Shown: in pieces, positions 10,870 to 43,797 of the stretch
How positions within the stretch are numbered: position 1 is the stretch's first letter
Layout of the letters: every line of letters begins with the position of its first letter
Assembly: GCF_002073895.1 (NCBI RefSeq)
Contig: NZ_CP012839.1
Coordinates: 415,486-479,485 of the forward strand
Length of the DNA stretch: 64,000 bases
From: Candidatus Riesia pediculischaeffi
GTDB taxonomy: Bacteria; Pseudomonadota; Gammaproteobacteria; Enterobacterales; Enterobacteriaceae
Reading direction: 5' to 3'
Notes under the pieces: generated by a model
The model's database searches: none
What the model was told of the DNA's origin: nothing
What the model saw: the letters and a program-made list of their open reading frames with translations, nothing else
Position numbers and translations under genes: made by a program

Positions 10870-12173
10870 TCATCGATTCCATCTATATTGTAAATATTCT
10901 ACGATTTTTTTAGACCCTCTAGAATGACTTGCGAGAAATGATTCTCTAAAAAATACGATACCTTGTATCTCTGATATATCATCACTTAAATCTAATTGTT
11001 TGCTAATCTCTGTAATTCCGTAGTTTTCAAACCATTCTGGTTCTTGAGGATTATAAATTCCAGCTTTATATAAAGCTAATCCAACACATAATTTAGTTCT
11101 AGAAGTTTTAATAAGATTCGCCCACCACTTTATCAGTATATCATATTTAGCTGTTTTATCAGAACAAGACCAATATATCTGAGGAATCACATAATCTAGT
11201 ATTCCGGTTTTGATCCATAATTTAACATCTGCATAACAAGAATCATAAGATGAATATAGTGAGTTAGTTTGAGATCCGAAAGGATCATTTCTAACATTCC
11301 TCCATATCCCTATTGGACTAACTCCGAATGATACATTCGGTTTAATGGAATGAATCTTTTTATATACATCTTTTATTAAAAGAAATGTATTGTTTCTCCT
11401 CCAATTTTCTTTATTGGAAAATTGATTTTTAGAATACTTATGATACGTATCATCATCTTTTAATCTCGATAGAGAATCTTCATAATAGAAGTAATCGTCA
11501 AACTGAATTCCATCTACATCATAAAATTTAACGATTTCTTCAACTATATTAACAATCCAACTACGTACTTCAGGCAAACCTGGATCCAATACAAACTGGT
11601 TGTGAGAAACTTTCACCCAACTATTATGTTGAATATATACACTTGGTAAATAGGAAAATGCAGTATTTTTCAAAGATAATACTGTGTTAGAATCTATTTT
11701 TGTTGAAACTCTATACGGATTTATCCAGGCATGTATCTTTAAATTTCTTTTATGTGCCTCCATGATAATGAACTCTAAAGGATCATAACCAGGATCTTTA
11801 CCGATCTTTCCAGTTAACACATTTGACCAAGGTAAAATACGCGATCGATACAGTGATGTTCCATCAGGCTTTACTTGAAAAAATATCGTGTTGAATCCGA
11901 TTTTACTTAATCTATCTAACTTTTCTATCAAACTTTTTTTTTGTAATTTTATCATTTTATCGAAAGAAGTACAAAAAAACACATTTGATGATTGATCAGG
12001 CCAATCTAAACCAAAAGCAGTTGTAATCCATATTCCTCTAACATTAGAATAATTGATTTTTGTTCTAGCTGAGATACAAGAAAAAATATCACTCAATATT
12101 AATATTGATAAGAAATGAAGGAAAAATTTTTGTAATTTTTTTTTTTATTTTTAAATAAGAATAAATTTTTCAT
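10870..12173 (-). CDS. digH: Glycosyl hydrolase DigH (YddW-type), start separated by an A11 frameshift
   Basis: The long frame (10870-12096) matches the DUF187/GH10-like family of E. coli DigH, an outer-membrane lipoprotein that cuts glycan strands stripped of their peptides. Family marks are Val-Arg-Gly-Ile-Trp-Ile-Thr-Thr with Leu-Asp-Trp-Pro, His-Ala-Trp-Ile-Asn-Pro-Tyr-Arg, Gly-Ile-Gln-Phe-Asp-Asp-Tyr-Phe-Tyr, and Asp-Tyr-Val-Ile-Pro-Gln-Ile-Tyr-Trp. That frame has no ATG at its head, only TTG, yet it is open further up and codes for a hydrophobic Phe-Phe-Leu-His-Phe-Leu-Ser-Ile-Leu-Ile-Leu stretch. An ATG at 12173, after an AAAGGA box, begins a Lys-rich signal-peptide start in another frame; one extra A in the A11 run joins the two into about 434 residues (439 in E. 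coli). I annotate the joined gene. Confidence 0.75.
12136..12146 (-). repeat. A11 homopolymer (coding strand) that breaks the digH frame
   Basis: Eleven A residues on the digH coding strand fall in the Lys-rich n-region of the signal peptide. Twelve (or nine) would bring the ATG at 12173 into frame with the enzyme. Confidence 0.85.
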
Positions 12174-12592
12174 ACAACTTATATTCCTTTCATATGAAGA
12201 TCTATAAATAAAAAATCGACGTTTATGATTTTATTTAACTCATTATGATACAAATCATTCTGATGATTTTACAGAAAGGATGAACCGAATAGAACAATCT
12301 GTATTCTTTAAATTGTTTGACCTTTAACAGTAAAAAAATAGAAATTGTAGAAATTTTTGTCAAAGTTAATTAATACTTTTTTGTTAAAAATAGTTTTTAT
12401 CTAGTTTTGATTGTAACGTATAAAATTTGCATTAAAATTATATTTAGTTTTTAAAATTACATATTAAAGGATACAAGTAAAACATATAAAAGTATATGTT
12501 CATATAATAAATGGATGAGAATATAAAATACATACGGTGTTCACGGTTTTTTAACAAAGATCTTTATAGAGATTCAAAAAATTTAATCAAAA
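12174..12592. other. Divergent intergenic region between digH and gmk
   Basis: About 420 A/T-rich bases with no recognisable gene. It must hold the two divergent promoters. A frame from 12511 overlaps the start of gmk in another phase and looks like a chance shadow. Confidence 0.4.
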
Positions 12593-13246
12593 ATGAAAGA
12601 GATAATTACAGGAAGAATATTTATCATATCTGCTCCGAGCGGGACCGGAAAATCCAGTTTGTTACGTGCTTTGATAAAAAAAAAGGGAAGAAATATGAAG
12701 CTTTCTATATCTTATACAACTAGAAAAATTCGATCACATGAAAAAGATAAAAAAAATTATTTTTTTATAAACATGAAAAAATTTCAAAATATGATTAATA
12801 ACAACGATTTTTTAGAATATGCTTCTGTATTCGGAAATTATTATGGAACTTCAAAAAAATTCGTTATAAAAAATATTAGGTTGGGATATGATATTCTTTT
12901 AGAAATCGATTGGCAAGGAGCTCAAAGAGTACTTAAAAAAATTCCCTCTTCAAGGAGTATATTTATTTTACCTCCATGCAAAGAAACCCTTCAGAAAAGA
13001 TTACTCAGCAGAAATCAGGACGATAAAAGTACGATATCACTAAGAATGCAGAATGTTGCACAAGACATTAAAAATGGATTAAAATATCATTACATAGTTA
13101 TCAACGATAATTTTGAACTTGCTCTTGAAGAAATTCATCATATTATATGCTCAGAACACCTTAGATCAAGAGAACAGATTTTAAAAAATTACAATTTGAT
13201 TCACGAATTTTTTCTGCAAGATGATGTTCGTGACAAACCTTATTAA
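12593..13246 (+). CDS. gmk: Guanylate kinase
   Basis: Gmk phosphorylates GMP to GDP and so links the guaB/guaA products made in this window to GTP and dGTP. It has 217 residues (207 in E. coli). The P-loop Ser-Ala-Pro-Ser-Gly-Thr-Gly-Lys-Ser-Ser lies at residues 13-22. The GMP-binding region has Ser-Tyr-Thr-Thr-Arg-Lys-Ile-Arg, then Phe-Leu-Glu-Tyr-Ala and Tyr-Tyr-Gly-Thr. Leu-Leu-Glu-Ile-Asp-Trp-Gln-Gly-Ala follows, and the lid has Arg and Asp-Asp residues around Ser-Arg-Asn-Gln-Asp-Asp. The frame contains an A9 run just after the P-loop (ATA AAA AAA AAG) and is intact through it. In E. coli gmk precedes rpoZ-spoT-trmH-recG; here recG follows directly. Confidence 0.96.
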   Translation: MKEIITGRIFIISAPSGTGKSSLLRALIKKKGRNMKLSISYTTRKIRSHEKDKKNYFFINMKKFQNMINNNDFLEYASVFGNYYGTSKKFVIKNIRLGYDILLEIDWQGAQRVLKKIPSSRSIFILPPCKETLQKRLLSRNQDDKSTISLRMQNVAQDIKNGLKYHYIVINDNFELALEEIHHIICSEHLRSREQILKNYNLIHEFFLQDDVRDKPY

Positions 13247-13684
13247 AAGATTAATAGAATATCGTTTTAATGAATTTAATATAGATCAGCTAATACCATT
13301 ATAAATAAAATCATCAACTTTATTATCTGTTGATTCTATTCGATAAGTTACTTTCTTTATTTATTAGTAGTTATTTTTTCAAAGTCTAATTTTTATCAAA
13401 GCACATCAAATCAGATCATAATATTCTTCATTAAAACACTATGATTTAATTTTAATTAAATACCTCACATTATATAGACGTTATTTAAAAAAGTAAATGA
13501 TATCATAAATATCTCAATATTTAAAATATTCGATATTTTAAAGATTGTGATACGTAAAATTTATGAAAATTTTGTAGCTCGTATCTTATCGAGATAGGTA
13601 AAATGATGTATACAATTTTTAAAAGTTTTTATTTAGTGTATCATTTTTGATTGAAGAAGATTGATATTTATCAGTTAAGACAAA
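13247..13684. other. 438-base gap replacing rpoZ-spoT-trmH
   Basis: E. coli has rpoZ, spoT and trmH between gmk and recG, more than 3 kb. Here under half a kilobase of A/T-rich DNA with frequent stops in all frames remains, and I recognise no piece of the three genes. The omega subunit and the (p)ppGpp synthase/hydrolase are therefore absent at this locus. Confidence 0.5.
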
Positions 13685-15796
13685 ATGAAAGTTAACGATA
13701 TTCGATTAGAAGATCTGGGAAATATATCCATAGAAAAAGTTGGACAGATCAACTCTTTTAAAAAGAGTAAATTGAATCGATTTGGAATACATAGTGTTTT
13801 AGATCTGATTTTTCATTTTCCAAAAAGTTATAAAGATCGAACTAAACTATCTTTAATTAAAGAAGTTCAAGATAAAGAAGACGCTTTCATAGTTGCCAAA
13901 ATACTGGAAAAACATGTGATAGAAACGAAAAAACAAATTGAAATACATGTCAGAGATCATTCTGGAAGACTAATAATTAAATTTTTCAACAACTCTTCTT
14001 TTATAAGAAAAATTTTTAAAAGAAATACTTACGTTCAGATATATGGAAGAGTATATCTCAGAAAAAACAAAAAATTTATGATCCATCCAGAATATAAAAT
14101 TTTAAGCTCTTTAAAAGATCTCACTATATCAGATTCTTTAACACCAATTTATCCAAATATTGATGGAATTAGTCAAAATACGATTCATACAATGATCAGA
14201 AAGTGCATGGTACTATTCAATCAATGTGTCGTCAAAGAGTTAATTCCAAAACCGTTTAATACAAAATTCATCGGATTTAAAAAAGCGATTAAAATCATTC
14301 ATCAACCAAATTCTAGAGTTTCTACGATCGATTTGAAAAAATATCAACATCCAGCACAAAAGAGATTGATATTCGAAGAATTGTTGGCATTTCAGTTATC
14401 TTTTATGAAGATAAGGAAAAAAAATAATTCATTAAAAGCAATTCCTCTAATCGTTAAAGAATCAACGAAAAGAAAAATTATCCGATCTCTTCCGTATTCT
14501 TTAACTGATTCTCAGAAAAACGCCATTAGAGAGATTGAGTTAGATCTTTCAAAAAGCACCCCCATGATGAGATTATTGTGCGGAGATGTTGGAACTGGTA
14601 AAACAATAGTTGCTTTATTTTCTTCTCTTTGTGCTATTTCTAATGGAAAACAAGTTGCTTTGATGACACCTACAACAATACTAGCAAAACAACATGCGGA
14701 TTTCTTCAAAAGAATGTTCCATCCAATCGGTAAAAAAGTAATTCAATTGTCTAAAAGTAATGATAAAAAATATTATTTATCTCAGCTAGATCAAATAAAG
14801 AGTGGAGAAGTTTCGATGATCGTTGGAACACACTCTATATTTCAAAAAAAAATTGATTTTTGTTCTTTATCCTTGGTAATAATTGATGAACAACACCGTT
14901 TTGGAGTTGATCAAAGATCAAAATTATTAAGAAAAGGAAGAACACAGGATGGAATATATGCACATCAGCTGATTATGACTGCTACTCCTATTCCAAGAAC
15001 ATTATCGATGAAAATTCATGCGAATCTTGATGTATCATTCATTAATGAATATCCTTTTGAAAAAAAAGTTCCAGCAAAAACTGTAATCATTTCCAATCTC
15101 AGAAGAGATGAACTGATACAACGCATCAAGAAATATAGCAAGAAAAACAAAACAAAAATTTATTGGATATGTACGATTGTCAATAGTTCAAATAATTTGA
15201 ACGTAGTTTCTTTAATGGATATCAATCGTAAATTGAAAGTATCTTTTTCAACAATGCAAATTGGTTTAATTCATGGAAAAATGAGCGTAAAAGATAAAAA
15301 GAAAATAATTTCTGATTTTCGTAAGAATCGAATACAAATTCTGGTCGCCACAACTATTGTAGAAGTTGGAATAGATATCCCGGATGTTAATATCATAGTT
15401 ATTGAAAATCCAGAGAGATTAGGATTATCTCAGTTACATCAGCTAAGAGGAAGAATCGGTAGAAATGGTGATCAAGAATCTTTCTGCATACTTTTATATC
15501 CCCCACTTATTACGAAGGTAGCACAATCAAGGTTAAGGGTGTTTAAAAATAGTTTTGATGGATTTCAGATCTCTGAAAAAGATCTCTTGATGAGAGGACC
15601 TGGAGAAAATTTAGGGGTTAAACAGACAGGATATCCGATATTCAGGATCGCAGACTTAAAAAGAGATTTTCAAGTACTTTATCAAGTAAGAAATCTGGCA
15701 GAACGCATCATTTTTTCGCGAGAGGATAATTCAGAACAGATAATGAAAAGATGGATATTCCATAAGACCGATACAAACTCGCAAAAGAATAAATAA
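13685..15796 (+). CDS. recG: ATP-dependent DNA helicase RecG
   Basis: RecG is a branch-migrating helicase that remodels stalled forks, R-loops and D-loops. The protein has 703 residues (693 in E. coli). An N-terminal wedge/OB domain (Phe-His-Phe-Pro-Lys-Ser-Tyr-Lys-Asp-Arg-Thr near residue 50) precedes the helicase core. Motif I is Gly-Asp-Val-Gly-Thr-Gly-Lys-Thr, motif Ia Met-Thr-Pro-Thr-Thr-Ile-Leu-Ala, motif II Asp-Glu-Gln-His-Arg-Phe-Gly-Val, and motif III Thr-Ala-Thr-Pro-Ile-Pro-Arg-Thr. The C-terminal motifs include Ala-Thr-Thr-Ile-Val-Glu-Val-Gly and Gln-Leu-Arg-Gly-Arg-Ile-Gly-Arg. Retention in a reduced genome points to a need for fork rescue. Confidence 0.97.
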   Translation: MKVNDIRLEDLGNISIEKVGQINSFKKSKLNRFGIHSVLDLIFHFPKSYKDRTKLSLIKEVQDKEDAFIVAKILEKHVIETKKQIEIHVRDHSGRLIIKFFNNSSFIRKIFKRNTYVQIYGRVYLRKNKKFMIHPEYKILSSLKDLTISDSLTPIYPNIDGISQNTIHTMIRKCMVLFNQCVVKELIPKPFNTKFIGFKKAIKIIHQPNSRVSTIDLKKYQHPAQKRLIFEELLAFQLSFMKIRKKNNSLKAIPLIVKESTKRKIIRSLPYSLTDSQKNAIREIELDLSKSTPMMRLLCGDVGTGKTIVALFSSLCAISNGKQVALMTPTTILAKQHADFFKRMFHPIGKKVIQLSKSNDKKYYLSQLDQIKSGEVSMIVGTHSIFQKKIDFCSLSLVIIDEQHRFGVDQRSKLLRKGRTQDGIYAHQLIMTATPIPRTLSMKIHANLDVSFINEYPFEKKVPAKTVIISNLRRDELIQRIKKYSKKNKTKIYWICTIVNSSNNLNVVSLMDINRKLKVSFSTMQIGLIHGKMSVKDKKKIISDFRKNRIQILVATTIVEVGIDIPDVNIIVIENPERLGLSQLHQLRGRIGRNGDQESFCILLYPPLITKVAQSRLRVFKNSFDGFQISEKDLLMRGPGENLGVKQTGYPIFRIADLKRDFQVLYQVRNLAERIIFSREDNSEQIMKRWIFHKTDTNSQKNK

Positions 15797-15816
15797 CTTC
15801 GATAATATAACGATTG

Positions 15817-16746
15817 TCATTTCTTAAAAAATTTAGAAAGGAATTTTTTTAAACTAAGGTGGTATTTTTCAAGATCGTCATTGCGATCGACTTCTATTCT
15901 GGAAAAACTAGATCTTATCAATCCAACTTTATGACAAGCCAGTTTAATAGGAATCGGATTGATAAAATACGATAGTTGTACGATTAATTTATGTAATTTA
16001 TAATGTAACTTCTTTGCTTTTTCGATCTTTTCGGATAAAAGAAAATCGCAGATCGAACGTACTACGTTTGCCGCAATGTTCGCTACCACGGATATTACAC
16101 CATCTCCTCCATTCAATATGAACTGAAAAAAGTTTAAATCGTTCCCCCCTAGTATGTAAAATCTCCTATTGATCAATTTTTTCATTATTACGATCCTTCT
16201 TAAAGAAGGATGAGATTCTTTTATCCCTACGATGTTATCAATTTTTGATAATTTATAGATTGTTGATAATGAAAGGTTATTTTTAGTTCGAGAAGGAACG
16301 TTATATAGTACCTGAGGTGAATCGGTTGAGTAAGAAATTTCTTTAAAATGAGCATACAGTTCTTCCTGCGATAAAATTCTGCTAAAAGGTGCATTTACTA
16401 GATGACCTGCTATTTGAGATTTTTGAACTAGCTTATTTGTTAAAACCGCTCCTCTAGTTGAATCGGAATTATTTCCTGCGATGATAGGTATTTTATTATC
16501 AGCATACTCTACTGCAGAAAAAATAACATCCATATATTCTTTTTGTGTAAGTTTATAGAACTCTCCCGTAGTTCCACATACGACAATAGATTGAGTTTTT
16601 TCTTTTATATGATACTCAACTACTTTTTTTAAACTAATCTTATCTATACTTCCATCTTCATTCATAGGAGTAACAATTGCTGCGATACTTCCAGAGAAAA
16701 TTCTTTTTTGACCTTTTTCTTTAACTTTGTTTGAAGATTGTTTCAT
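15817..16746 (-). CDS. dapA: 4-hydroxy-tetrahydrodipicolinate synthase (DapA)
   Basis: DapA condenses pyruvate with aspartate semialdehyde, the first committed step toward diaminopimelate. The TIM-barrel protein has 309 residues (292 in E. coli), with about 17 extra Lys-rich residues before Phe-Ser-Gly-Ser-Ile-Ala-Ala-Ile-Val-Thr-Pro. The Schiff-base lysine is in Gly-Ile-Lys-Glu-Ser (Lys176). The active-site tyrosine and arginine are in Leu-Tyr-Asn-Val-Pro-Ser-Arg-Thr (Tyr148, Arg153), and the threonine pair is Gly-Thr-Thr-Gly (59-60). The usual Pro-Tyr-Tyr-Asn motif reads Pro-Phe-Ser-Arg at 120-123, so the second tyrosine of the proton-relay triad (Tyr107 in E. coli) is Ser. Either the enzyme is slower, or the specificity has drifted within the DHDPS/NAL superfamily. 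With asd present, DapA remains the best call. Confidence 0.88.
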   Translation of the reverse strand: MKQSSNKVKEKGQKRIFSGSIAAIVTPMNEDGSIDKISLKKVVEYHIKEKTQSIVVCGTTGEFYKLTQKEYMDVIFSAVEYADNKIPIIAGNNSDSTRGAVLTNKLVQKSQIAGHLVNAPFSRILSQEELYAHFKEISYSTDSPQVLYNVPSRTKNNLSLSTIYKLSKIDNIVGIKESHPSLRRIVIMKKLINRRFYILGGNDLNFFQFILNGGDGVISVVANIAANVVRSICDFLLSEKIEKAKKLHYKLHKLIVQLSYFINPIPIKLACHKVGLIRSSFSRIEVDRNDDLEKYHLSLKKFLSKFFKK

Positions 16747-17652
16747 ATATCATCTAAAAATTTAGTTACCATTGCCGGATGATCTTTAAAAAAAAAGATT
16801 AAAACTTTAAGAATTCTTATATTTGTAAAAATTGAACTAAACTGTATTCAAATCGTTTATAAAACGGTTGGTATTTATTATTTACAACAACATATCAATC
16901 GACATAATTTTCAATTCTTTGCAAATGGATTCTTCATGATTGATTCTAACAATGAAACTGATAAAATCTATTGCAGTCATACTTGAAGAAAGTGTATAAA
17001 ATCCAATACGATATGGAAATACTTCCATTTGATATTTTGATAAGAGATCCTAAAATTAAAAAAATTTTTCGAATTAAATTGGTAGATATTACGATGGAGA
17101 TATTTTATTCGATTGAAAATTTAACTTAATTCATAAACATATTTGAAATATTTTATATGCATGTTACGTCGATATAGTACAAATGGATAATCGAATAGTC
17201 ATTTATCTTTTATTTAAAATTTAAAAAAACCATAAAAATGATGTCTTCCTGATCTATCTGAATTAGAAGTATATGAAATTATGTGATAACTATAAGAGAT
17301 AGATTCAGCTATTATCAAAAAGACCTTTTATCTTACATGTTCTCGAAGAAACTAAATTTCAAAATTTTTGGAAATAAGTATTAAAACTTAATAAAATTTA
17401 AATGAAAAATATTCATGAATAAAAATCTAATCAAAATGTTCTCTCGCAAATCTGATAAGTAAGAATATATTATTTTACATTCGATCTGATCTCGACGTAC
17501 AGTACGATCTTATGTTATATGCGTTATGTACGTGATATACGGACCTAATGAAAAACAGTTTAACTAATCTTAACGGACGGTCAGTGATAAAACAATTGGG
17601 AGTACAGTTTAATTTCGACCTATAATTTCGTTCTTTCATCCTTGATAAAAGA
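16747..17652. other. 906-base gene-poor region between dapA and upp
   Basis: A/T-rich and without a recognisable gene. One minus-strand frame of 48 codons (16882-17028) has a protein-like composition (Met-Glu-Val-Phe-Pro-Tyr-Arg-Ile-Gly-Phe start) but I cannot match it to a family; it may be a relic. A frame running from inside upp to 17475 looks like a read-through shadow of upp. Confidence 0.35.
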
Positions 17653-18279
17653 CTACTTTGTTCCAAAAATTTTATCTCCAGCATCTCCCAAACCAGGGAT
17701 AATGTAGCTATTTTTATTCAATTTTCTATCAATGGAAGCAGTATACAATTCAACATCTGGATGGAAAAGCTTTAGTTTCTCTATACCTTCTGGAGACGAA
17801 ACAATAACGATAACTTTAATAGACTTGCATCCGTATTTCTTTAGTAATTCGATCGTAGCGAGTATTGATCCACCAGTGGCTAACATCGGATCTAAAACTA
17901 ATGCCATCCTTTCTTCAATATTCGAAGCTAACTTTTGAAAGTACAAAATTGGTTTCAATGTTATTTGATCACGATATACACCTACTAAACTGATTCTAGC
18001 ACTTGGGATGTTCTCCAATACTCCATCCATCATTCCTAATCCAGCACGTAATATCGGAACAACAGTAATTTTTTTTCCTTTTATTTTTTTAGTTTTTACC
18101 TTTCCTAACCATCCATCGATGATAATTGTTTCTGTTTCTAGATTTGCCGTCGCTTCATATGTCAGAAGGCTTCCTATTTCAGAAGAAAGTTCTCGAAAAC
18201 TCTTAGTGTTAATATCTCTGTGTCTCATTAATCCAAGTTTATGTTGAACTAATGGATGTTTTACCTCAATGATCTTCAT
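17653..18279 (-). CDS. upp: Uracil phosphoribosyltransferase
   Basis: Upp salvages uracil with PRPP to give UMP. The protein is 208 residues, equal to E. coli. It starts [16 protein letters not shown], keeps Leu-Arg-Ala-Gly-Leu-Gly-Met and the PRPP-binding loop [10 protein letters not shown]. It ends with [11 protein letters not shown], the uracil-recognition motif. The uracil permease gene uraA that follows upp in E. coli is gone. Retention of salvage suggests that the host supplies uracil or that RNA turnover is recycled; that is inference. Confidence 0.97.
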
Positions 18280-19795
18280 AATTCATTGTTCCTTGTCTTT
18301 AAGTGAAAATAAAGTTAGAATGATGGGACTGTTCTGATGATTTTACCGTTTTAGATAATTATAAACATATCGAAGATATGTGTATACGAAATGAGAAAGT
18401 GATGTTTTCGTCGTATCTCGATTCTTACTCTATGAAAAAGACCATTTATACATGATTAATCTAATCTTTTTTTTTGATTTTTTAAAATGGTTCAAAACAT
18501 CATAACAAACAACCAACACCTTAATTTGATAAGGATGTATAACTTTTACCTAATCAAACGAACGTTAGATGTTACTTGATCTTTCAAACTGGTATTAAAT
18601 CGTCAAGAGTTAATCTATTTTATTTTTTTTAAAATCCGTTTTTATGATTTTTACATTTATTAGCAATTTTAGAACATGCTGTATAAAGTATCCGCGATGA
18701 TGATCACTTTTTAAGGTTATTACCTGATAAAAAATATTATTTATAAAATATTCCCTGAGATATCTCATACGCCTAATAGTTTTTATAAAGAAAGGATTTC
18801 AATCATTTAAACCATATTCATGTTGCATATATCTTTTAGTTTGATAAAAACATTGATTAATGGTAGAAATGAAAAACTAATGAAATTGTATCTTTTCTCT
18901 TATTCAATCTCTTACGAATACAAGAGATGATTGATGCTCTTATCAAACAAAACTGTATCATCTGAAACAACAAGATGTTGTTAAATATATCGACGTAATA
19001 CTAATTTATTAAATTTGATATAACTCTCCATAGCTTTTAATTTTTAGATAGAAAAGAGATTCTCTTCGATACTTACTTTCTATGTATTCTATAGAAGTTT
19101 TTAAATAAGTTTAATCTTAATTTTCATTTTTCTAAGGTGTATGCTCCGTAATACATTTCTCTTTACATTTGAAATATTTTCATAAAATTTAATTTAACTT
19201 AAACGTTATCATTATCGTATTTAAATTAATCCATAAATTTTTATAAAAATAAAATATTGAATTTTTAGAAATGATATTGTTAAAAATTTTCTTGATTTTA
19301 TGAAGATGTTAAATTTAAAAAAAAGATTAAATAGATTTGGTGATTAAATTTTTGGATCGATTTTGATCGACTGTAGAATGGTTCTTCTTAGAACAAATTT
19401 TTGATGACTCTATGTTCGAGGAATTGTTTTACATTATCGAATTCTTAGGAATGGTGGGCAGGATACAAATGCGAATTTTTTTGAATTTAAGATAGGATAA
19501 GTTCCATACATTTAATTGTAGATAGGGATCTGATGTCGTAATAAATTCGACAAATTCTTATTAAATACAAATATCTTTATGAAAGTTGAGATGCTAGATA
19601 TCAATATAATCTTGTTCTGCTTAAGTATTTTAAGAAAATTAACTTTTCGATCGCTATCGAATCCATTTTTGGAAAGATATTCATATCTTAACAATCTCTA
19701 GTAGATGTTCATTTTTTTATGTAAAAATTATCAAGGAATTTAAAAATTAAATAGATTCAATTTCCCATACAACATTAATTATTGAAGATAGAGTT
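18280..19795. other. 1.5-kb region without a readable gene upstream of the MgtE fragment
   Basis: This is one of the longest gene-free stretches here. All frames are broken by frequent stops and the base composition is very A/T-rich. Given that the following frame codes only for the membrane half of an MgtE transporter, eroded N-terminal and CBS-domain sequence could lie in the last kilobase. I translated parts of it and found no convincing match. Confidence 0.4.
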
Positions 19796-20386
19796 TTGGA
19801 AAAAAATAGAGAAAAAGAGAAAAACAGCAAAACCGAATTGAACCATATAGAAAACATTTTTTCTTCAATATGGAGATCCGTCAGAAATAGATGGATTTGG
19901 CCTACAATCAATTTATGTACAGCTTTTATTGCTTCTAGAGTCATTGAGATTTTCGAAAGCACTATTTCTCACATTGTTGTTCTGGCAACTCTTATGCCGA
20001 TAGTTGCTTGTGTAGGAGGGAACACAGGAAATCAGACCACAACGATAATTATTAGAGCTATCGCATTACATCAAGTAAAATTAAGCGATATTTCTTTCCT
20101 GTTCTTGAGAGAATTAGGAGTTGCCCTAGTTAACGGAATATTTTGTGGGAGTATTACAGGGGTGATCACTTATTTTCTATATCATAGTATAAAAATAAGT
20201 ATGATCATGATGCTAGCAATGATCTTGAATTTAATGACAGCTGCCTTGATCGGTGTAGCGATACCTTTAATTATGATAAAAATCGGAAAAGATCCAGCGA
20301 TCGGATCTAGTGTCATTATCACTGCAATCACTGATACGAGTGGTTTTTTTATATTTCTTTGGTTAGCTACGCTATTTTTGATATAA
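19796..20386 (+). CDS. mgtE: MgtE-family magnesium transporter, membrane domain only
   Basis: MgtE is a Mg2+ channel whose usual form (about 450 residues) has a cytoplasmic N domain, two CBS domains and a five-helix pore. Here only about 196 residues are readable. They start just before the plug helix (Ser-Val-Arg-Asn-Arg-Trp-Ile-Trp-Pro) and run through the whole pore. The family signature Pro-Ile-Val-Ala-Cys-Val-Gly-Gly-Asn-Thr-Gly-Asn-Gln is present, and so is an aspartate in a late helix (Ile-Thr-Asp-Thr-Ser-Gly-Phe). The frame has no ATG before that signature; TTG at 19796 is one possible start, and the frame is open back to 19751. The gating domains are missing. This may be a 5'-eroded gene or a minimal ungated pore like SLC41-type proteins. 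Confidence 0.65.
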   Translation: MEKNREKEKNSKTELNHIENIFSSIWRSVRNRWIWPTINLCTAFIASRVIEIFESTISHIVVLATLMPIVACVGGNTGNQTTTIIIRAIALHQVKLSDISFLFLRELGVALVNGIFCGSITGVITYFLYHSIKISMIMMLAMILNLMTAALIGVAIPLIMIKIGKDPAIGSSVIITAITDTSGFFIFLWLATLFLI

Positions 20387-20529
20387 ATGATGTTCTGTTA
20401 TGAACGTAGTGGAAGACGTGTCCGTTTTATTATGTACATTAAGGATCTAAACACCATATTTTAGACATGTTACAGTTGTTTCTTATCTTACAAATATCTT
20501 TTTTATAAAAAATTACGCAAGATAGATAG

Positions 20530-21840: not shown

Positions 21841-21952
21841 AAACTCTTTCATATCAACATTTGTTTGTACACTTGAAGAAAATCTACTCTATTAGTTATG
21901 TGTATAAATATTTAGAGAAGTTAAGGTGTACATTCTTTTCAAATGTGGAATT

Positions 21953-23620: not shown

Positions 23621-24002
23621 ATGAGCAATGAATCTCTTAGATTGATCCAGATAGGACATAGTAATAACAAATGGATAATTAACATCACAAAAAATGCATT
23701 CAACAAAATAAATCATATCTTAGAAGAAGATCGATCGAAAGATTCGTGGATTTTTTTTAAATTTCTTGAAATCTGGATGTTTAGGATCTTCCTATAATAT
23801 AAGTAAAATATACAAAAACGATCTTTCTTATCTAGTTTTTAGTAGAGATAATATAAATATTTTCGTTATTCATAAGTTTATCCAATTCATTGATGGGATA
23901 AAGATTGACTATATCAAAGAAGGATTAAATAGAAGGTTTACATTTGAACATCCAAAGATTGTTCGATCCTGCAAGTGCGGAGAAAGTTTTGTTTTTATTT
24001 AG
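23621..24002 (+). pseudogene. sufA: SufA A-type Fe-S carrier, interrupted by a one-base shift in a T8 run
   Basis: SufA receives Fe-S clusters from SufBCD and hands them to target proteins. The ATG at 23621 opens a frame (Met-Ser-Asn-Glu-Ser-Leu-Arg) that reads through Ile-Leu-Glu-Glu-Asp-Arg-Ser-Lys-Asp-Ser-Trp-Ile-Phe. It then runs out of frame at eight T residues. Removing one T joins it to Phe-Leu-Lys-Ser-Gly-Cys-Leu-Gly and the rest, ending Cys-Lys-Cys-Gly-Glu-Ser-Phe. The joined product has about 126 residues (122 in E. coli) and all three cluster-binding cysteines. There is no other lesion, and every other suf gene is intact. It may be a fresh pseudogene, a sequencing error, or a gene read through transcriptional slippage. 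The sufB start follows closely. Confidence 0.85.
23751..23758 (+). repeat. T8 homopolymer that breaks the sufA frame
   Basis: Eight T residues in the coding strand between the N- and C-terminal parts of sufA. Seven would give a single open frame. Confidence 0.85.
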
Positions 24003-24014
24003 AAAATATTGAAG

Positions 24015-29338: not shown

Positions 29339-29342
29339 CGAT

Positions 29343-30290: not shown

Positions 30291-30366
30291 TACGATAAAA
30301 AGTAAGGAATTCACAATCTATCATTTAAGCGAACTTTACGAATTATAGAAGATTCTACAAAGATTG

Positions 30367-32882: not shown

Positions 32883-33296
32883 ATAGTATAATTTAAAAAA
32901 AAAATTAAGTGAGATTTGTTTAATATTTCTAAAAAAATTATAGAACTTTTGCAAAACTATATTTTAGTATTTTATACTCACTTTCGAAGTGTTCTACAGC
33001 AAGATTTCTTAAGAAATATACATTATCTCCATTTAATCTCGTTCAAATATGATACTAATCATAGATTATAGATCATTATCCCATTTATAATGATTTTCAA
33101 TCTTATTTAAGATAATTAACATGAATATTTTTATGTAGAAGGTTATTTTTTTTGTAGAATTTATATAAAAATAATTTTATATCTTGAATTTTTATTTTTT
33201 ACTGTAGAAGATCATTCTATAATTAGAATATAAATGGTGATAGAGCATATAATCGATCTTCAGAAATTCTATTAATGATATCAATATCTGATTAAA
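32883..33296. other. 414-base gap between grxD and tyrS
   Basis: A/T-rich, without a recognisable gene or tRNA. It contains a 14-bp perfect palindrome (ATTTCTTAAGAAAT, 33004-33017) of unknown meaning. Confidence 0.4.
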
Positions 33297-34622: not shown

Positions 34623-34676
34623 GGTTCATAAGATTTTTATAGGAGCTGGAAAACGATAACAAAATTATTAAATTTT

Positions 34677-35471: not shown

Positions 35472-35676
35472 ATACGATATCGTCTCGAGTTTTAAAAGGT
35501 GAGAGTGTCTGTATTAAACAATCAATAAAAATTCTTGTTCAATTAGTAAACCTGCCTTCTTAAGATCATGAATAAACATGAACGACCTTATTCATAAGAA
35601 CGAGATAATTGTTCGAAAAACTCTTTTATCGAAACCTAACTTTATGTTTCTTAGTTCAAAAGATCGTTCATCCTAT

Positions 35677-36672
35677 CTATCGACTAATGTACTTGATTAA
35701 ATCTAAAACTTTTTCAGAATATCCGGTCTCATTATCGTACCAAGAGATCAGTTTAGCAAAATTTCCATTTATCAACGAACTCGCCTTCGCATCGAAGATA
35801 GAAACTAGGGTATTTCCGTTGAAATCACTTGAAACGACCTCTTCATCCGTATATCCTACTATTCCTCTCAAGTAGCTTCTGGAAGCTTCTTTGACGAGTT
35901 CGCAAATTCTATCAAAAGAAGTTGAAACTTTTAAAGAAACTGTGAAATCCACTACAGAAACGTTGGCAATTGGTACTCTAAATGCCATTCCGGTTAATTT
36001 ACCTTGTAAATCAGGTATTATTTTTCCGGTAGCTTGAGCAGCTCCAGTCGTAGAAGGTATGATGTTTTGAATGGAACCTCTTCCATCTCTCCAGTTCTTC
36101 ACGGAAGGACCGTCGACTGTCTTTTGGGTAGCAGTCGCTGCATGTACCGTTGTCATGATGCCACTTTGTATTCCGAAATTCTCGTGTACAATTTTCGCTA
36201 TCGGAGAAAGACAGTTGGTAGTACAGGAAGCGTTAGAAACTATATCTTGATTCTGGTAGGTATGATGGTTTACACCCATCACAAACATTGGTGTATCGTC
36301 TTTAGATGGACCAGTGAGAACGACTTTCTTTGCACCGCAGGAGATGTGTGGACGAGATAATTCATCAGTTAAAAAAAGACCAGTCGCTTCTGCTACACAA
36401 TCCACTCCGATTTCTCCCCATGATATATCTTTAGGGTTCTTTTCGGAAGTGCAGCGAATCTTATTACCGTTCAATAATATCGAATTTCCTTGAACTTCAA
36501 TGTTCTCCAAAAAATTACCGTGTGTTGAATCGTACTTTAAAAGATATGCTATGTACTTCGTATCTAACAAATCGTTTATTCCAACTATCTTTATATCTTT
36601 CCTTTTTTGAGCAAGTCGAAAAATTACTCTTCCAATTCGACCAAATCCATTGATTCCTACTCTGATTGTCAT
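35677..36672 (-). CDS. gapA: Glyceraldehyde-3-phosphate dehydrogenase A
   Basis: GapA catalyses the NAD-linked oxidation step of glycolysis. The protein has 331 residues, as in E. coli. The NAD-binding start is [11 protein letters not shown], and the nucleophilic cysteine is in [10 protein letters not shown]. The catalytic histidine follows in Thr-Val-His-Ala-Ala-Thr. The substrate-binding Thr-Gly-Ala-Ala and the C-terminal Trp-Tyr-Asp-Asn-Glu-Thr-Gly-Tyr-Ser are present. It is one of the best conserved proteins of the window. It is followed upstream by the remains of sppA, which is also a near neighbour in E. coli. Confidence 0.98.
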
Positions 36673-36699
36673 CGATTTTACCTTCTCCGTTCATCATTT

Positions 36700-38109
36700 A
36701 CATTAAAATATTTAATCTGTCTGTTTTTGCACATCACTCAAGTAGATCAAGCGATGTCGAACTAGATAATATAGTCGAACTTCATAAAAATCAAATCATT
36801 TATCGATTTCTATGTAAAAATTTCTGAAAAACTTTGAATTAAGGTTCCTAATCGATTCTTATCAGTATTCAACATCTCAACTTTCGTATCAGATAACCAA
36901 TTTAGGATGTGTAAGATCATGTTGTTTATCGGGACATATCCTACTCGGATCTTCCAGTACATCAACGATATCAAAATATTTTTCTTTCTTTACCATATAA
37001 CTGAAGAATATATGAACGTTCAAACAGGAATAGATCATTTCGATCGTTTATCTTATCGTCCAAGAACTGTGACAATTTTATCGTATCATCAATATCATCT
37101 AGTTATCCAACTGATCCTTCCATAAGTCATATGAAACGAATCTGAATTCTTCTATCATATTGATTTAAAATATTGATTTCTATGAAAGATAAGGTTGTAT
37201 TTCGAATGCTACCGCATTTTTTTCGTACGTCTAAATTTCTGAGAGAAACGGATCTATCACAGAAATTTCGATGTTGTGGTAGATCAATAACTTAGCTTTT
37301 ATCATGATCTAACTTTCGGATACATCATCCGAATATTTTAACTGAACTGACAGTAATTTTCTGATGAAAGATGAGATAGTTGAAATCGATGAACGTCCAA
37401 TATCTCTCTGATATCCGCTTCTTTCACAGGTGCGATCACATATTTTTCATCCTCTCGGAGAGATCGAACATATTTTCAATTTTTCGAAACCTGATCCATC
37501 TGCAAGACGATTGATTATCAATTCCAACGATCGATGTTAAGAACAAACTTATCTTTCGATGTTTCGATGACATCTCTTATAAATTATGTATTCACGTTTG
37601 AATGTTCATCCTAGTTTTAAAGAATACTATGATTTGTACAAATTCACTACGATATCTACAGATCCCTCTATATTTCAACAGTTTATCTTCGAAACATTCT
37701 GTTTCCATCGATATACGTTGATGCAACGATCTATGATCGATCAAGTAAATCAGATTATTTTTTAAGATTCACGATGTGTCATCCATGTTAAGTGATTCTA
37801 CGGTTCAAACTATCCTTCCATAAAAATCATTTTAACAATCACATCTGATTCTTCCAAGAACTCCTTAAAATACCTACAATAATTAGAACAAACTTTAAAG
37901 GTTGGTCTTTCATACCTGATGGATACATTTTTGTTTCTGATACTACCTGGATAATAAGATAGGGTAATTCTCCTGATCCTTAGTTTACGTTCAATGATAC
38001 ATCGTGTAGAAGATCGATCTACCGTAATTCAACCGTACGATCTTGAAACACCCGTTGATCTCTTGATGTCACGAATTTTCGTATGGATTCGATAATTTAA
38101 AACAGCGAT
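36700..38109 (-). pseudogene. sppA: Decayed middle and C-terminal part of sppA (signal peptide peptidase A)
   Basis: No long minus-strand frame exists here, but fragments in shifting frames match SppA in the right order. At 37801-37872 the minus strand reads Tyr-Phe-Lys-Glu-Phe-Leu-Glu-Glu-Ser-Asp-Val-Ile-Val-Lys, like the E. coli segment Tyr-Tyr-Lys-Ser-Leu-Leu-Asp-Lys-Leu-Lys-Val. At 37325-37378 it reads Tyr-Leu-Ile-Phe-His-Gln-Lys-Ile-Thr-Val-Ser-Ser-Val-Lys-Ile-Phe-Gly, like Tyr-Ile-Val-Ala-Asn-Pro-Ser-Thr-Leu-Thr-Gly-Ser-Ile-Gly-Ile-Phe-Gly. The spacing fits a gene of about 1.7-1.8 kb. The catalytic serine motif is not recognisable. Stops and frameshifts are many, so it is inactive. Confidence 0.7.
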
Positions 38110-38394
38110 TTATTCTGGGTGAGTTGATCGTAGTCGAAATGATGACGATCGAATCGATACATGAGCTTTATCGTAAGAACGGATATGATTGACAATCATA
38201 TCGTTTAAATTAAAAACTAACGTTCCATAATCCTCTTCGTGAGATCTTTTGTTTTCTCGATATAACATCAAGACGACGATTAGAACGAGGATGATCAAAA
38301 TATTTAGGAGAAAGGCGGTTAACTTCCCTATCAATTTGAACAGGTGAAGAACAGGTTTGAAAATGAGAAAGATGAGTTTCAAAAATTCCCACAT
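38110..38394 (-). pseudogene. sppA: Intact N-terminal fragment of sppA
   Basis: This 94-residue frame matches the start of SppA, an inner-membrane peptidase that cleans up cleaved signal peptides. It has Trp-Glu-Phe-Leu-Lys with a long hydrophobic anchor, then Tyr-Gly-Thr-Leu-Val-Phe-Asn-Leu-Asn-Asp-Met-Ile-Val, equivalent to Gly-Ala-Leu-Leu-Leu-Asp-Ile-Ser-Gly-Val-Ile-Val in E. coli. It stops before any catalytic region; the rest of the gene lies decayed downstream. If translated it would be a bare membrane anchor. A small membrane protein with a new role cannot be excluded. Confidence 0.7.
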
Positions 38395-38507
38395 CGAAGT
38401 ACTTAAATGACGAAGAAGTTATTCTGTCGTTCAGTATAGCGTTTTGAAGAAAAGACCTTGGATGATCCAGATATCATAGCTAGAACATACGATGTATGTT
38501 TGAGCCA

Positions 38508-39314
38508 TCATATCTTGAAATCAGCCCATACCGGAGCATGATCAGATGATCTGATCATATTTCGAATAGAATAATCTATCCCGGAACTCTGACATATATT
38601 AAATAATTCTTTTGAAGAAAGTATCAGATCGATCCTTAAACCGATATTTCTAAGGAACCCATTCGAACGATAATCGAACCAAGAAAATCTTTTTTCAGTT
38701 TCGCCACTTTTTTTTCTGAAAGTATCAGAAAGTCCAGAAGACTTCAACTCTTGCATCCAAATTCGTTCTTCCGGAAGAAAAGCACATTTTCCAATTTTTA
38801 TCCATTTATTCCGATGATATTCGCTAATTCCAATGTCTTGTTCATCCGGACTGATGTTCATATCTCCCATAACAACTATGTTCTCATTTCTGCCGATCGT
38901 CGCACGAACATATTTGGTTAAATCTTGATAAAATCTCCTTTTTTTTTCAAACTTATCCTTGTTCTTTTTATAACCACCTTGTGGAGAATAGATGTTCACT
39001 ATATGAATCGTCTTCTCCTTCAAAAGGATGTTCGCCGATATGATACGACATTCTTCGAAAAAATCCTTTTCGAAAAACTTTATGTCGACATCAACCAACT
39101 TTTTTTTACTGAACAGAGCAACTCCGCAGCGAGATTTCTGTCCGTTAAGATATATGTGGTAGTTGAAATTGACAAATTTTTCTATCGGAAAAAGTCCATT
39201 CTCCACCCTAGTTTCCTGCAATCCAATGATATCTGGATCATATTTTTCGATGACTGCATAAAGTTGATGTATATGCGCTCGAATACCGTTGATGTTAAAA
39301 GAGACGAATTTCAT
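38508..39314 (-). CDS. xthA: Exonuclease III
   Basis: XthA is the major AP endonuclease and 3'-5' exonuclease of base excision repair. The protein has 268 residues, as in E. coli. Catalytic motifs are intact: Phe-Asn-Ile-Asn-Gly-Ile-Arg-Ala, Gly-Leu-Gln-Glu-Thr-Arg (metal Glu), Tyr-Ser-Pro-Gln-Gly, Met-Gly-Asp-Met-Asn-Ile-Ser-Pro, Trp-Phe-Asp-Tyr-Arg and Ser-Ser-Asp-His-Ala-Pro-Val. It is not in an obvious operon; lysS lies upstream on the same strand after a short gap. Its retention with recG and a possibly slipping recJ suggests a minimal repair set. Confidence 0.97.
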   Translation of the reverse strand: MKFVSFNINGIRAHIHQLYAVIEKYDPDIIGLQETRVENGLFPIEKFVNFNYHIYLNGQKSRCGVALFSKKKLVDVDIKFFEKDFFEECRIISANILLKEKTIHIVNIYSPQGGYKKNKDKFEKKRRFYQDLTKYVRATIGRNENIVVMGDMNISPDEQDIGISEYHRNKWIKIGKCAFLPEERIWMQELKSSGLSDTFRKKSGETEKRFSWFDYRSNGFLRNIGLRIDLILSSKELFNICQSSGIDYSIRNMIRSSDHAPVWADFKI

Positions 39315-39408
39315 TCGACGATCTTCCGTTAACTGTATTAAAAATTTTTAAATATCTTTTCGTTTAATATTTTTCAAAATGATCGTATTGATCATAAAAT
39401 AACAAGCT

Positions 39409-40881
39409 CTATGTATCATTCTTTCTAAGGATTGGAAAGAATATCACATCCCGAATAGAACAGCGATCTGTCAGCAACATGACCAATCTATCGATTCCTA
39501 TACCTAACCCAGCTGTAGGAGGTAATCCATATTCCAAAGCGGAGATATAATCTTCATCGTAAGAATAATCTTGATCAACCACACCTGATCGATTTTCTCT
39601 ACGCTGTTGGATAAATCGACTTAACTGATCGATCGGATCGTTCAGTTCAGAGAATCCGTTGGCGACCTCATATCCTCCTATGAAAAGTTCGAACCTTTCT
39701 GCGATCGAAGGATCATCTTCTTTTCTTTTTGATAAAGGAGATACTTCGATAGGATACTCCGTAACAAAAGTTGGTTGTACCAGTTTTTTTTCTACTACCT
39801 TCTCAAAAATTTTATACTGTATTTTACCTAACTGATCCGTATCATCGATTTTGACTTCATACGATTTGGCAATCATGATAATTTTATCCTTATCGTTCAA
39901 ATCCTTTTCAGAGAATTCATCGGAGATATTTCTCAAGATGGACTCTTTCATAGTAATCTTTTCGAAATCTTTATCGAAGTCTAAAAAATTTTCTCCATGT
40001 TTTACCTTGCTTGTTTTGAGCATTGATCGAGCAATCTTCTTCAATAGAAGTTCGACAAACTTCATAAGATCTAAATAGTTTTTATAAACTTCGTACATCT
40101 CCATCATTGTAAATTCTGGATTGTGCACTCTTGATATCCCTTCGTTTCTAAAGTTCTTACCGATTTCAAAAATCTTTTCGAATCCTCCGATGATCAATCT
40201 CTTTAGATATAGCTCCGGAGATATCCTTAAATATAGTTCAGTATTTAATGTATTATGATGAGTGATGAAAGGTTTTGCTAAAGCTCCGCCAGGTATCGGT
40301 TGCATGATCGGAGTTTCCACCTCTATGAACCCTCTTCGGTTCATAAATTGGCGTATCCAGTTAATAATTTTGGATCGAACAATAAAAATTTCTTTAGAGT
40401 CCTCATTAGAAATAAGATCTAAACATCGATTTCTATGTTGGATCTCTCTATTTTTTAGTCTGTAGAATTTGCTCGATATCGTACGATACGATTTGGACAA
40501 CAAGTAGATTCTCTGACAATCTATGGTCAATTCACCTACTTTGGTCTTAAACAATCTTCCATACACCCCTACTATGTCCCCTAAATTCCATTTTTTAAAA
40601 TGATGTTCATAGAACTTTTCTTTGACGGTGTTCACTGAAACATACACTTGGATCGTTCCTGAAAAGTCTCGCAACGTGAAGAAAGATGCTCTTCCAAGAA
40701 TTCTTCTGGAGATCATCCTTCCTGCTACAGAAACATGATTCTCCAAACTTATTAATTTTTTTCTTTCTATTTGATAGAATTTATTATATAAATCTTTAGA
40801 TAAGTGGTCTCTCTTAAACCCTTTGTGTCGACACAATGAGTGATATCTTCTTATATTATTTCCTACAATTTTTGTTTTCAT
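39409..40881 (-). CDS. lysS: Lysyl-tRNA synthetase (class II)
   Basis: LysS charges tRNA-Lys. The protein has 490 residues (505 in E. coli); the N-terminal helix is shortened. The OB-fold anticodon-binding domain has Val-Ala-Gly-Arg-Met-Ile-Ser-Arg-Arg. Class II motif 2 is Phe-Arg-Asn-Glu-Gly-Ile-Ser with His-Asn-Pro-Glu-Phe-Thr-Met-Met-Glu, and motif 3 Gly-Leu-Gly-Ile-Gly-Ile-Asp-Arg-Leu. The Pro-Gly-Gly-Ala-Leu-Ala-Lys-Pro-Phe loop and Pro-Thr-Phe-Val-Thr-Glu-Tyr-Pro are also typical. It is 34 bases downstream of prfB, in the conserved recJ-prfB-lysS order. Lysine codons are very frequent in this genome, so demand on this enzyme should be high. Confidence 0.97.
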   Translation of the reverse strand: MKTKIVGNNIRRYHSLCRHKGFKRDHLSKDLYNKFYQIERKKLISLENHVSVAGRMISRRILGRASFFTLRDFSGTIQVYVSVNTVKEKFYEHHFKKWNLGDIVGVYGRLFKTKVGELTIDCQRIYLLSKSYRTISSKFYRLKNREIQHRNRCLDLISNEDSKEIFIVRSKIINWIRQFMNRRGFIEVETPIMQPIPGGALAKPFITHHNTLNTELYLRISPELYLKRLIIGGFEKIFEIGKNFRNEGISRVHNPEFTMMEMYEVYKNYLDLMKFVELLLKKIARSMLKTSKVKHGENFLDFDKDFEKITMKESILRNISDEFSEKDLNDKDKIIMIAKSYEVKIDDTDQLGKIQYKIFEKVVEKKLVQPTFVTEYPIEVSPLSKRKEDDPSIAERFELFIGGYEVANGFSELNDPIDQLSRFIQQRRENRSGVVDQDYSYDEDYISALEYGLPPTAGLGIGIDRLVMLLTDRCSIRDVIFFPILRKNDT

Positions 40882-40915
40882 TCTTTCGTGAAGACCGATT
40901 ATTTATCTTTTTTTT

Positions 40916-42064
40916 TTACAAAGGTATATTTTCTTTATTTAAATTTGCTATGATGAATTTATCAATCTTTCCGTTCAAAATAGACTGTACATTTCTATCT
41001 TCTGTTCCAGTTCTTAAATCTTTTACTCTTGAATGATCTAGGACGTAAGAACGTATTTGATGACCCCAAGTTATATCAAACTTGCTATTCTCGATAATTT
41101 TTTGGTTCTCTTGTTTTTCTTTTTCCTTAATTTCACATAATTTATTTCGTAGTTGTCTTAAAGCATGTTCTTTATTTCTATGCTGCGATCTATCATTTTG
41201 ACACTGTGTAACTATCCCGGTTGGAATATGTGTGATCCTAATTGCTGATTCTGTTTTATTAGTATGTTGTCCTCCAGCTCCAGAAGATCGATAAGATTCG
41301 ATTCTCAAGTCATGAGATTTGATTTCGATTTCCTGGTTCTTATCATCTGATATCTCAGGATACACGAATACGGAAGAAAAAGAAGTATGTCTTCTTCCTG
41401 AAGAATCAAACGGACTCTTTCGAACTAACCTGTGGATTCCTGTTTCTGTTCTCAACCATCCGTAAGCATATTTTCCTTGTATCATAAGAGTAGATGATTT
41501 GATTCCTGTTAACTCTCCATATGAGATATCTAATATGTGCGATCGAAATTTTTTTAATCCAGCCCATTTTAAATACATCCTCATCAACATATTTGTCCAG
41601 TCTTGAGAATCTATTCCTCCAGATCCAGACTGTAGATCTATATAGCAATTACAAAAATCATTTTTTTTTGAAAATAGTCGAATCAACCTTATATCTTCAA
41701 TTTTTGATTGAACTTCTGATATCTTTTGAAAAGCTTCATTTAAAAAATCCTCATCTTTGTTTTCTATTAGAAAATCAATTAAAATTCTGATATTTTCTAA
41801 ACCTTCTTCTACCCTTTTTATCTTCTCGATCTCAATCTTCTTATTAATCGATCGTCGCATTACTTCGAATTTCTCCGATCTGTTCTCATCACGATTCTTC
41901 GAACAATCTTCATACTTCAAGATATTTAGATCGCACCATCCTCCTTCATTTTTGAAGGTTCTTTTAAGATCTTGAAATGCTTTGACAGATCTTTTAAAAC
42001 GTTCTATTATATTCTTAATTTCCATTCTAGATAGCAATTCGATTCGTTGAATAATTTGATCCAT
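40916..42064 (-). CDS. prfB: Peptide chain release factor 2 (no programmed frameshift)
   Basis: RF2 reads UAA and UGA stops and triggers peptide release. The frame encodes all 382 residues without interruption (365 in E. coli). The stop-recognition motif Ser-Pro-Phe is in Val-Arg-Lys-Ser-Pro-Phe-Asp-Ser, and the catalytic Gly-Gly-Gln in Gly-Ala-Gly-Gly-Gln-His-Thr-Asn. In E. coli a UGA at codon 26, read by +1 shifting, autoregulates the gene. The corresponding N-terminal region here is continuous and has no UGA or Shine-Dalgarno-like stimulator, so that control is lost. It is 9 bases downstream of recJ. Confidence 0.97.
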   Translation of the reverse strand: MDQIIQRIELLSRMEIKNIIERFKRSVKAFQDLKRTFKNEGGWCDLNILKYEDCSKNRDENRSEKFEVMRRSINKKIEIEKIKRVEEGLENIRILIDFLIENKDEDFLNEAFQKISEVQSKIEDIRLIRLFSKKNDFCNCYIDLQSGSGGIDSQDWTNMLMRMYLKWAGLKKFRSHILDISYGELTGIKSSTLMIQGKYAYGWLRTETGIHRLVRKSPFDSSGRRHTSFSSVFVYPEISDDKNQEIEIKSHDLRIESYRSSGAGGQHTNKTESAIRITHIPTGIVTQCQNDRSQHRNKEHALRQLRNKLCEIKEKEKQENQKIIENSKFDITWGHQIRSYVLDHSRVKDLRTGTEDRNVQSILNGKIDKFIIANLNKENIPL

Positions 42065-42073
42065 TACCGTTGT

Positions 42074-43797
42074 TTAATCTTCAATTGGCCATAAATATTG
42101 AATTAGTAATTGCACTTTATCTCCGTAACAATACCTATAGTTAACATCTATCTTATATGCTGCTCTTACTAATCCGTTACAATCGAAAGGACATTTAGAC
42201 TCGTAGTTAAAAACTATTCCATTGAACTCCCTCTGTTCTTCAAGTAATTTTAACTTCACTTTAAGGTGCTTTTTTTTGAGGATTTTTTTTCTCAATATCA
42301 AGAATTTTCCATCGAAAATAGGCTCTGGGAAACCAGGACCCCATGGACCTGCGTACCTGATCAGTTCAGCTGTCTCAATCGAAAAATCTTTTCCTTTTAA
42401 CTCTCCATCACTTAAGATGACGTTCTTCAACGTAGCATGATTCAGTATTTTTTCGGTCAGGCGAACAAATTTATTCTGAAAAATTTGAAATTTATCTTCT
42501 TCTATCGTCAAACCAGCCGCCATTCTATGACCTCCAAATTTTAATATTAATCCCGGATATAGCTGATCCATTTGTTCTATAATATTTTTTATATGTAACC
42601 CATCTATCGATCTTCCCGAACCCTTTAGGATACCATGTTGTGATCTGGCGAAGATTATTGTAGGCCTGTTGAAGTATTCTTTTATTCTCGAAGCAAGGAT
42701 ACCTATGATTCCTTGATGCCATGTCGGATAATACATGACTAAAACTTTTGGCAAAATCGTTTTGTTCAGGTTAAGTTCATCAAATATCTCATAAGCTTCT
42801 CTTTGCATGTTCTCTTCTATTTTCTTTCTAGATTCATTGAGATTATTTAATTTAACCGCAATCGTTTTAGCTGAACTCTCATCATCTGTTATCAATAAAG
42901 CTACGCTGATTGACATATCATCTAACCTTCCAGCAGCATTTAACTTTGGACTAACTGTGAAACTAAGATCATTCGAAACAACCGTCTTAATATCAATCCT
43001 GGAAATTGTGATGAGCATCTTTATTCCGATACAACACATTCCAAATCTAATTCTCCTTAATCCGTGATGGACAAGTATACGATTGTTTTTATCCAATGGG
43101 ACAAGATCAGATATGGTTCCTAATGCAACTAAATCTAAAAAATTTGCTAAATTTGGAACTTCTATAGATCTTTTTTTAAACCATCCTATTTGATTTAGTT
43201 TAGATCTTAATGCGAGCATAAGATAGAAACTCACTCCAACTCCAGCCAACGATTTGGATGGAAAATTTGAATTTGGTAAGTTTGGATTCACTATCGCGTC
43301 TGCTTCAGGAAGAATTTCTTCTGGAAGATGATGATCGGTGATGATTACCTTAACTCCGTTCTTTCTAGCATACACCACTCCCTCATGGGCAGAAATTCCA
43401 TTATCTACGGTGATGATCAGTTGAACTTTTTTTTTATAACCTTTTGTACGGTCGTTTTGGTTAGCCCGTATCCATCTTTAAATCGGTTTGGTATGAAATA
43501 ATCGACACTATTGTATCCTAATTTCTTCAATATCCGTATCAACAGGGCAGTGCTAGTCGCCCCGTCAACGTCAAAATCTCCTACTACGACAATTCTCCAT
43601 TTATCATACAAAGCTCGTATCAGAAGATTGACCGCCTTTTTTATATCAGTCAATAATCTGTAGTCTAAAAGAGATCTTATGCTTAATTCTAAATCCTCTT
43701 CAGAAGATATTCCTCTTGAGGAATATATCCGTTGCAATATGGAAGGTAGGTTATTTAACTTACAATCTCCTTTTTTCTCTCTTCGGATCAATTTCAT
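42074..43797 (-). pseudogene. recJ: Single-strand exonuclease RecJ, split by a one-base shift in an A9 run
   Basis: RecJ degrades single-stranded DNA 5'-3' in recombination and mismatch repair. The N-terminal frame (43417-43797) holds motif I Val-Val-Gly-Asp-Phe-Asp-Val-Asp-Gly-Ala-Thr-Ser and ends Val-Ile-Lys-Lys-Lys-Phe-Asn then stop. The second frame carries Asp-His-His (Ile-Thr-Asp-His-His-Leu-Pro), Ala-Gly-Val-Gly and Gly-Gly-His. One more A in the A9 run gives Lys-Lys-Lys-Val-Gln-Leu-Ile-Ile-Thr-Val-Asp-Asn-Gly-Ile-Ser, exactly the family sequence, and a total of about 574 residues (577 in E. coli). No other lesion is seen. The gene is either freshly broken, misread, or rescued by slippage. 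Confidence 0.88.
43427..43435 (-). repeat. A9 homopolymer (coding strand) that breaks the recJ frame
   Basis: Nine A residues read ATA AAA AAA AAG on the coding strand and lead to an early TGA. Ten would restore a single recJ frame. Confidence 0.85.

Follow-up and report, generated by a model that had tools for sequence, protein, structure and literature searches.

In Blochmannia, genes including dnaX, ytfM and erfK carry a single insertion or deletion (indel) within a poly(A) or poly(T) tract, and passages of the report concerned describe the dnaX shift as common to B. vafer and B. floridanus in a gene which is otherwise in frame (PMC3017870). Homopolymer frameshifts of Blochmannia are also treated in sections of another paper (PMC4389277). 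In a review, the part on aphid and ant symbionts (Buchnera and Blochmannia) gives 12–50% corrected transcripts as the outcome of slippage on poly(A) (PMC5009743); excerpts of a later study report no frame restoration in Buchnera (PMC5574713). The present study concerns recJ, digH and sufA of Candidatus Riesia pediculischaeffi, which lie in a stretch of 64,000 nucleotides (the window; positions 415486-479485 of contig C2 of the source genome, G000; about 30% G+C). The initial annotation regarded these genes as a set decoded by slippage, and this idea is supported for one gene of the three, recJ, and not for digH and sufA. The recJ frameshift is shared by two species, and both halves of the gene are under selection in each. 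The likeness to Blochmannia is that an AT-rich insect symbiont has one indel in an A/T run and that the shift is shared across species, replication genes being affected in Blochmannia according to the same passages (PMC3017870). The difference is that the genus Riesia is associated with lice, that the gene is recJ, that an A9 run is among the shortest of the lengths discussed and that the present case is known from sequence. A mixed pool of messenger RNA (mRNA) is proposed for recJ as for the Buchnera and Blochmannia genes; there it was measured in transcripts, whereas here it is inferred from selection. We regard recJ as a new case of this known kind of homopolymer frameshift and leave the membership of digH and sufA undecided.

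The genus-level comparison was made between two genomes, the source genome (571,864 bp in two contigs, the smaller of 5,197 bp) and a genus mate, G001 (one contig of 574,389 bp and one of 7,737 bp). The window is colinear with G001 in inverted orientation, in blocks of 67-84% nucleotide identity, most of them near 74%. A scan of genome contigs with the 3' part of recJ brought up no third Riesia and a scan of plasmids gave no match, in scans from which very near genomes may be missing. In the window, recJ is on the reverse strand and loses its frame at an A9 run (43427..43435). The 5' open frame of 126 residues (43417..43797) holds the start of the DHH domain and ends just beyond the run. The 3' open frame (42074..43426), of 450 residues from run to stop, holds the rest of the DHH domain, the DHHA1 domain and the RecJ OB domain, with no ATG adjoining the run; in Pfam matches, too, DHH spans both frames and DHHA1 and the OB domain fall in the second. 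In G001 the gene is out of frame at the identical A9 run (C2:115926-115934), with identical near flanks. Against the RecJ model PRK11070 (577 positions), the two halves in the window align at 6-127 and 148-577, the 3' piece being scored from its first GTG and not from the run, and those of G001 align at 5-127 and 131-577. The spacing at the junction was compared with that of 12 relatives, excluding the RecJ loci L015, L017 and L019, and it equals the spacing of intact RecJ in eight of the nine usable relatives, the ninth (L020) being one that could not be judged. Conserved residues begin straight after the run (87.5% identity between the two genomes over 40 codons), and no methionine occurs within the first 60 residues past it in either species. 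Because of these two features a separate downstream protein is unlikely, and so is a gene making two separate RecJ polypeptides, which would have to depend on an odd start codon.

Both sides of the recJ shift are under strong purifying selection. Protein identity between the two genomes is 76.8% for the 5' part (125 codons) and 79.5% for the 3' part (449 codons), which places them at ranks 0.74 and 0.82 among 153 open reading frames (ORFs); the ranks were computed on all 153, and the median identity is 71%. In the 3' part the two genomes differ by 0.167, 0.105 and 0.474 at the first, second and third codon positions, and differences at the third exceed the mean of the other two 2.6-fold in the 5' part and 3.5-fold in the 3' part. 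When recJ was simulated as unconstrained since the split of the two genomes (third-position change matrix, 2000 runs), it collected a mean of 34.3 stops, with a minimum of 19, and its identity fell to 0.26. The observed halves contain no stop, and a second lesion is seen in neither genome. For comparison, true decay within the same period is seen in sppA (36691..38394, reverse strand), a pseudogene with many stops in the window and an open gene in G001; its description in the initial annotation as a case of scattered lesions was borne out.

For all three genes the first reading of the sequence had been accurate as to the lesion itself, since the family-matching frame switches at the run in digH (A11), sufA (T8) and recJ (A9), and both sides of each shift are recognisable. 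The position of the lesions in homopolymers is also non-random. Runs of at least eight A or T make up just 0.72% of coding bases in the 146 source-genome ORFs left after the broken ones are removed, so the three lesions are not a uniform accident. But long runs are hotspots of indels as well, and no mutS was found, so run position alone is no proof of rescue. The 146 ORFs are those remaining of the 153 when seven are left out (the recJ 5' part, the sufA 3' half, digH, recG, the rluD-like gene and the two pieces of cyoB), and halves of 13 other broken genes of the source genome are still inside both sets. The initial annotation had advised looking for both shift and run in relatives. In G001 recJ has the same shift at the same run, whereas digH and sufA are single open frames lacking the run, which makes their breaks private to the source genome; the shift is thus conserved between species for recJ only.

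In digH (reverse strand) the A11 run (12136..12146) breaks the signal-peptide region, and the body of the gene (10870..12135), with its GHL10 domain (PF02638), is open downstream of the run. In sufA (forward strand) the frame is lost at the T8 run (23751..23758). The 3' half (23759..23999) belongs to the SufA family; it matches the SufA model below its curated cut-off, gives no Pfam match at 0.001 and has 49% identity to G001 (rank 0.04 of 153 ORFs). Nine bases is the run length named for bacterial slippage in the relevant part of the review, and the sufA T8 is below it (PMC5009743). A single indel in a run of about nine or more is found in recJ (A9) and digH (A11), and sufA is one base short of nine.

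The quality of the source sequence has a direct bearing on these two genes. A survey of frame breaks was made with 279 kb of the source genome against 280 kb of G001 and took in 169 G001 ORFs of at least 80 residues, plus 43 from a partly overlapping region. It revealed 13 genes whose frame is broken in the source genome only and at sites off long runs, all of them outside the window (loci L025-L029, L035-L037 and L041-L043 on C2). Eight are named by NCBIfam matches (ffh, rpsA, gloB, pgk, glnS, sucA, rho and hflC) and five more we take, from recognition of the sequence, to be nrdB, miaB, pepA, cysS and glmM. Of these genes, ffh, rpsA, glnS, cysS, rho, glmM, nrdB and pgk are essential in E. coli, and because so many essential genes are hit, the 13 breaks are most simply explained as sequence errors. 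The source sequence therefore probably contains indel errors, and the errors are likely to be regional. Stretches of N, possible assembly gaps, flank the window (415455-415485 just before it and 483513 after it), and in the part enclosed by them, which contains the window, no break outside homopolymers came up in the survey. Since private breaks occur at ordinary sequence in the source genome, a homopolymer break seen in that genome only cannot be credited to slippage. This weakens digH and sufA and leaves recJ unaffected, because its break recurs in the second genome.

It should be noted that the recJ split was found by eye and from an adjacency list and was missed by the automatic rule, so that other shared breaks may have escaped; sufA and digH scored below the relaxed rule as well. 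Several candidates were dropped. These were a block resembling ribosomal RNA near G001:C2:36-40 kb, adjacent genes that had looked like split ones (presumably rpsR/rplI at 315775 and pheS/pheT at 484904, together with a gene end at 292356), very short ORFs matching in several frames (G001 241943-242248 and 270570-270836) and mirror rows duplicating breaks already counted. A site in cyoB near 405800, with an A8 close by, is ambiguous and was kept out of the 13.

In the surveyed part of G001 three breaks were found, in recJ (A9), recG (A13) and a rluD-like gene (A9), all of them in coding-strand A-runs of at least nine, a class of run that makes up 0.32% of coding bases in G001. recG is intact in the window (13685..15796, forward strand) and its ortholog is broken at G001:C2:144374-144414 (reverse strand). 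The rluD-like gene, for a pseudouridine synthase (about C2 41465 of G001, reverse strand), loses its frame at an A9 run with a G after it, and its counterpart in the source genome has A10 and is in frame; the source-genome protein scores 320.8 bits with the RluD model NF008385, below the cut-off of 351, and above the cut-off of TIGR00005. Both G001 genes fit the idea of slippage, each as a single-genome case. In G001, coding A-runs of at least nine that stay in frame are rarer than in synonymous shuffles (50 vs 68.1, standard deviation (sd) 5.3; none of 200 shuffles as low); in the source genome the depletion is weaker (27 vs 33.6, sd 4.1; 17 of 200 shuffles as low). Neither genome gave a match for mutS or recR, and no RecB over its cut-off was found in them, a cut-off which just one of 14 control genomes passes. 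recA is open in both. The two genomes thus hold a recombination kit in which recA and recJ are kept, without mismatch repair. Loss of mutS is probably why long runs break so easily in these genomes.

The reading we consider probable is that the one-base frameshift of recJ in A9 is old, most likely inherited by both Riesia-type genomes from their common ancestor, and that re-setting of the frame on the run, in part of the expression, has kept the gene useful; the private breaks of digH and sufA would be error, recent damage or the same rescue. Slippage of RNA polymerase on A9 is the most likely route; the mRNA pool would then be mixed and would yield some full-length RecJ. Polymerase slippage is ranked above ribosomal shifting because the A-run cases need both directions and the literature precedent fits. 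Several points weigh against this reading. The recJ case comes from the sequence of two species only. The two lineages may each have suffered a recent deletion independently, a chance put at 1-2% by a rough estimate from break rates. Exact A9+ runs are kept at the same place in three of 27 other in-frame cases, and a kept run alone is therefore not proof. In addition, when indels in the transcripts of E. coli and Buchnera were counted across the genome, no restored frame was detected (PMC5574713).

That digH and sufA have wrong run lengths from assembly or sequencing error and are intact genes has about an even chance. Their being in frame in G001, the 13 private breaks off long runs, several in genes essential in E. 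coli, and the short N stretches all speak for it. As a general explanation it is opposed by the recurrence of the recJ break, by the lack of non-homopolymer breaks in the surveyed part holding the window and by 124 other coding runs of eight or more which stay in frame in the 146 ORFs. For the breaks in digH and sufA, error or recent decay is as good an explanation as slippage, and the claim of slippage is unproven here. Decay of all three genes, as young pseudogenes with the recJ deletion occurring twice, is improbable. In its favour, long A-runs are hotspots of deletion, no recJ match came from five of the family's smaller genomes (G006-G009 and G011), and few ORFs are less conserved than sufA. 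Against it, recJ is more conserved than most ORFs compared and shows no second lesion in either genome. Just as poorly placed is a mosaic of run lengths, in which the tract flips in replication for want of mutS and many genome copies per host are in frame despite the consensus. The missing mutS and the rluD-like run, with its different length and frame in the two genomes, agree with it; a random flip would not favour the same out-of-frame length of recJ in both species.

The alternative closest to frame re-setting by the polymerase is a programmed -1 shift of the ribosome, which would give the same full-length RecJ. In E. coli, dnaX undergoes -1 frameshifting at A_AAA_AAG with an upstream Shine-Dalgarno-like stretch. 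recJ has the same heptamer in the same phase (43426..43432, reverse strand; AAA AAG in the upstream frame), a candidate slip site of the X_XXY_YYZ type that is conserved in both recJ genes. In recJ and in the G001 rluD-like gene alike, the A9 run is followed by a G, the upstream frame reads AAA AAG there and the frame needed is -1. A weak Shine-Dalgarno-like AAAAGG (43440..43445, reverse strand; AAAGGA in G001), a possible stimulator, stands 7 nucleotides before the heptamer, and such an AAAGG-like stretch is present upstream of recJ in both species as against six of 77 other coding A9+ runs (5/27 in the source genome and 1/50 in G001). On the other hand, the spacing of 7 nucleotides is shorter than in dnaX, about 10 being usual for shifts of that type, the shifted product is the full-length one and no downstream stem was detected. 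The folding of four downstream stretches was within 1.3 sd of shuffles (z scores +1.3 and +0.7 in the window, -0.2 and -1.0 in G001), by a model that does not cover pseudoknots, and synonymous conservation shows no clear excess (over 40 codons, 0.63 of the conserved ones are identical; overall, 0.59). A recoding signal downstream of recJ, which was considered as a candidate, is unsupported on both counts. The recG A13 needs the opposite direction of shift, and A9+ runs ending in G in this phase also lie inside open genes (1/5 in the source genome and 8/13 in G001). Ribosomal frameshifting in place of polymerase slippage is thus rather unlikely, yet it is a better candidate than twofold decay or the mosaic.

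A literature search in one library, on Riesia with slippage or recJ and on recJ with symbiont frameshifts, brought up no report of this case. Frameshift, recJ and slippage are absent from the main text of the R. pediculischaeffi paper (PMC4232544), and recJ, recG and Riesia from that of a study that surveyed 1106 prokaryote genomes for frame transitions (PMC3711429). Two further ORFs of the window, both on the forward strand, may be mentioned. An MgtE-like ORF (19796-20386) has the membrane domain only (PF01769), a TTG start and 86% identity in G001, and seems to be a shortened transporter that has been kept. A UPF0114 family protein (583-1179) has 94% identity in G001 against the median of 71%.

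With recJ, the louse symbiont provides an instance, common to two species, of a frameshift that has been retained out of register. A second genome sorts kept frameshifts from probable sequence errors, and one of the three genes passes. It is a long shot that, in symbionts of the Riesia type lacking mutS, some of the remaining genes for recombination and repair (recJ in both species, recG in G001) are expressed by way of poly(A) slip sites. The A_AAA_AAG of recJ, usable by polymerase and ribosome alike, would then be a fixed and dosed control rather than a tolerated defect, and repair capacity would depend on slippage. Annotating recJ as a pseudogene would misjudge the repair capacity of the organism.

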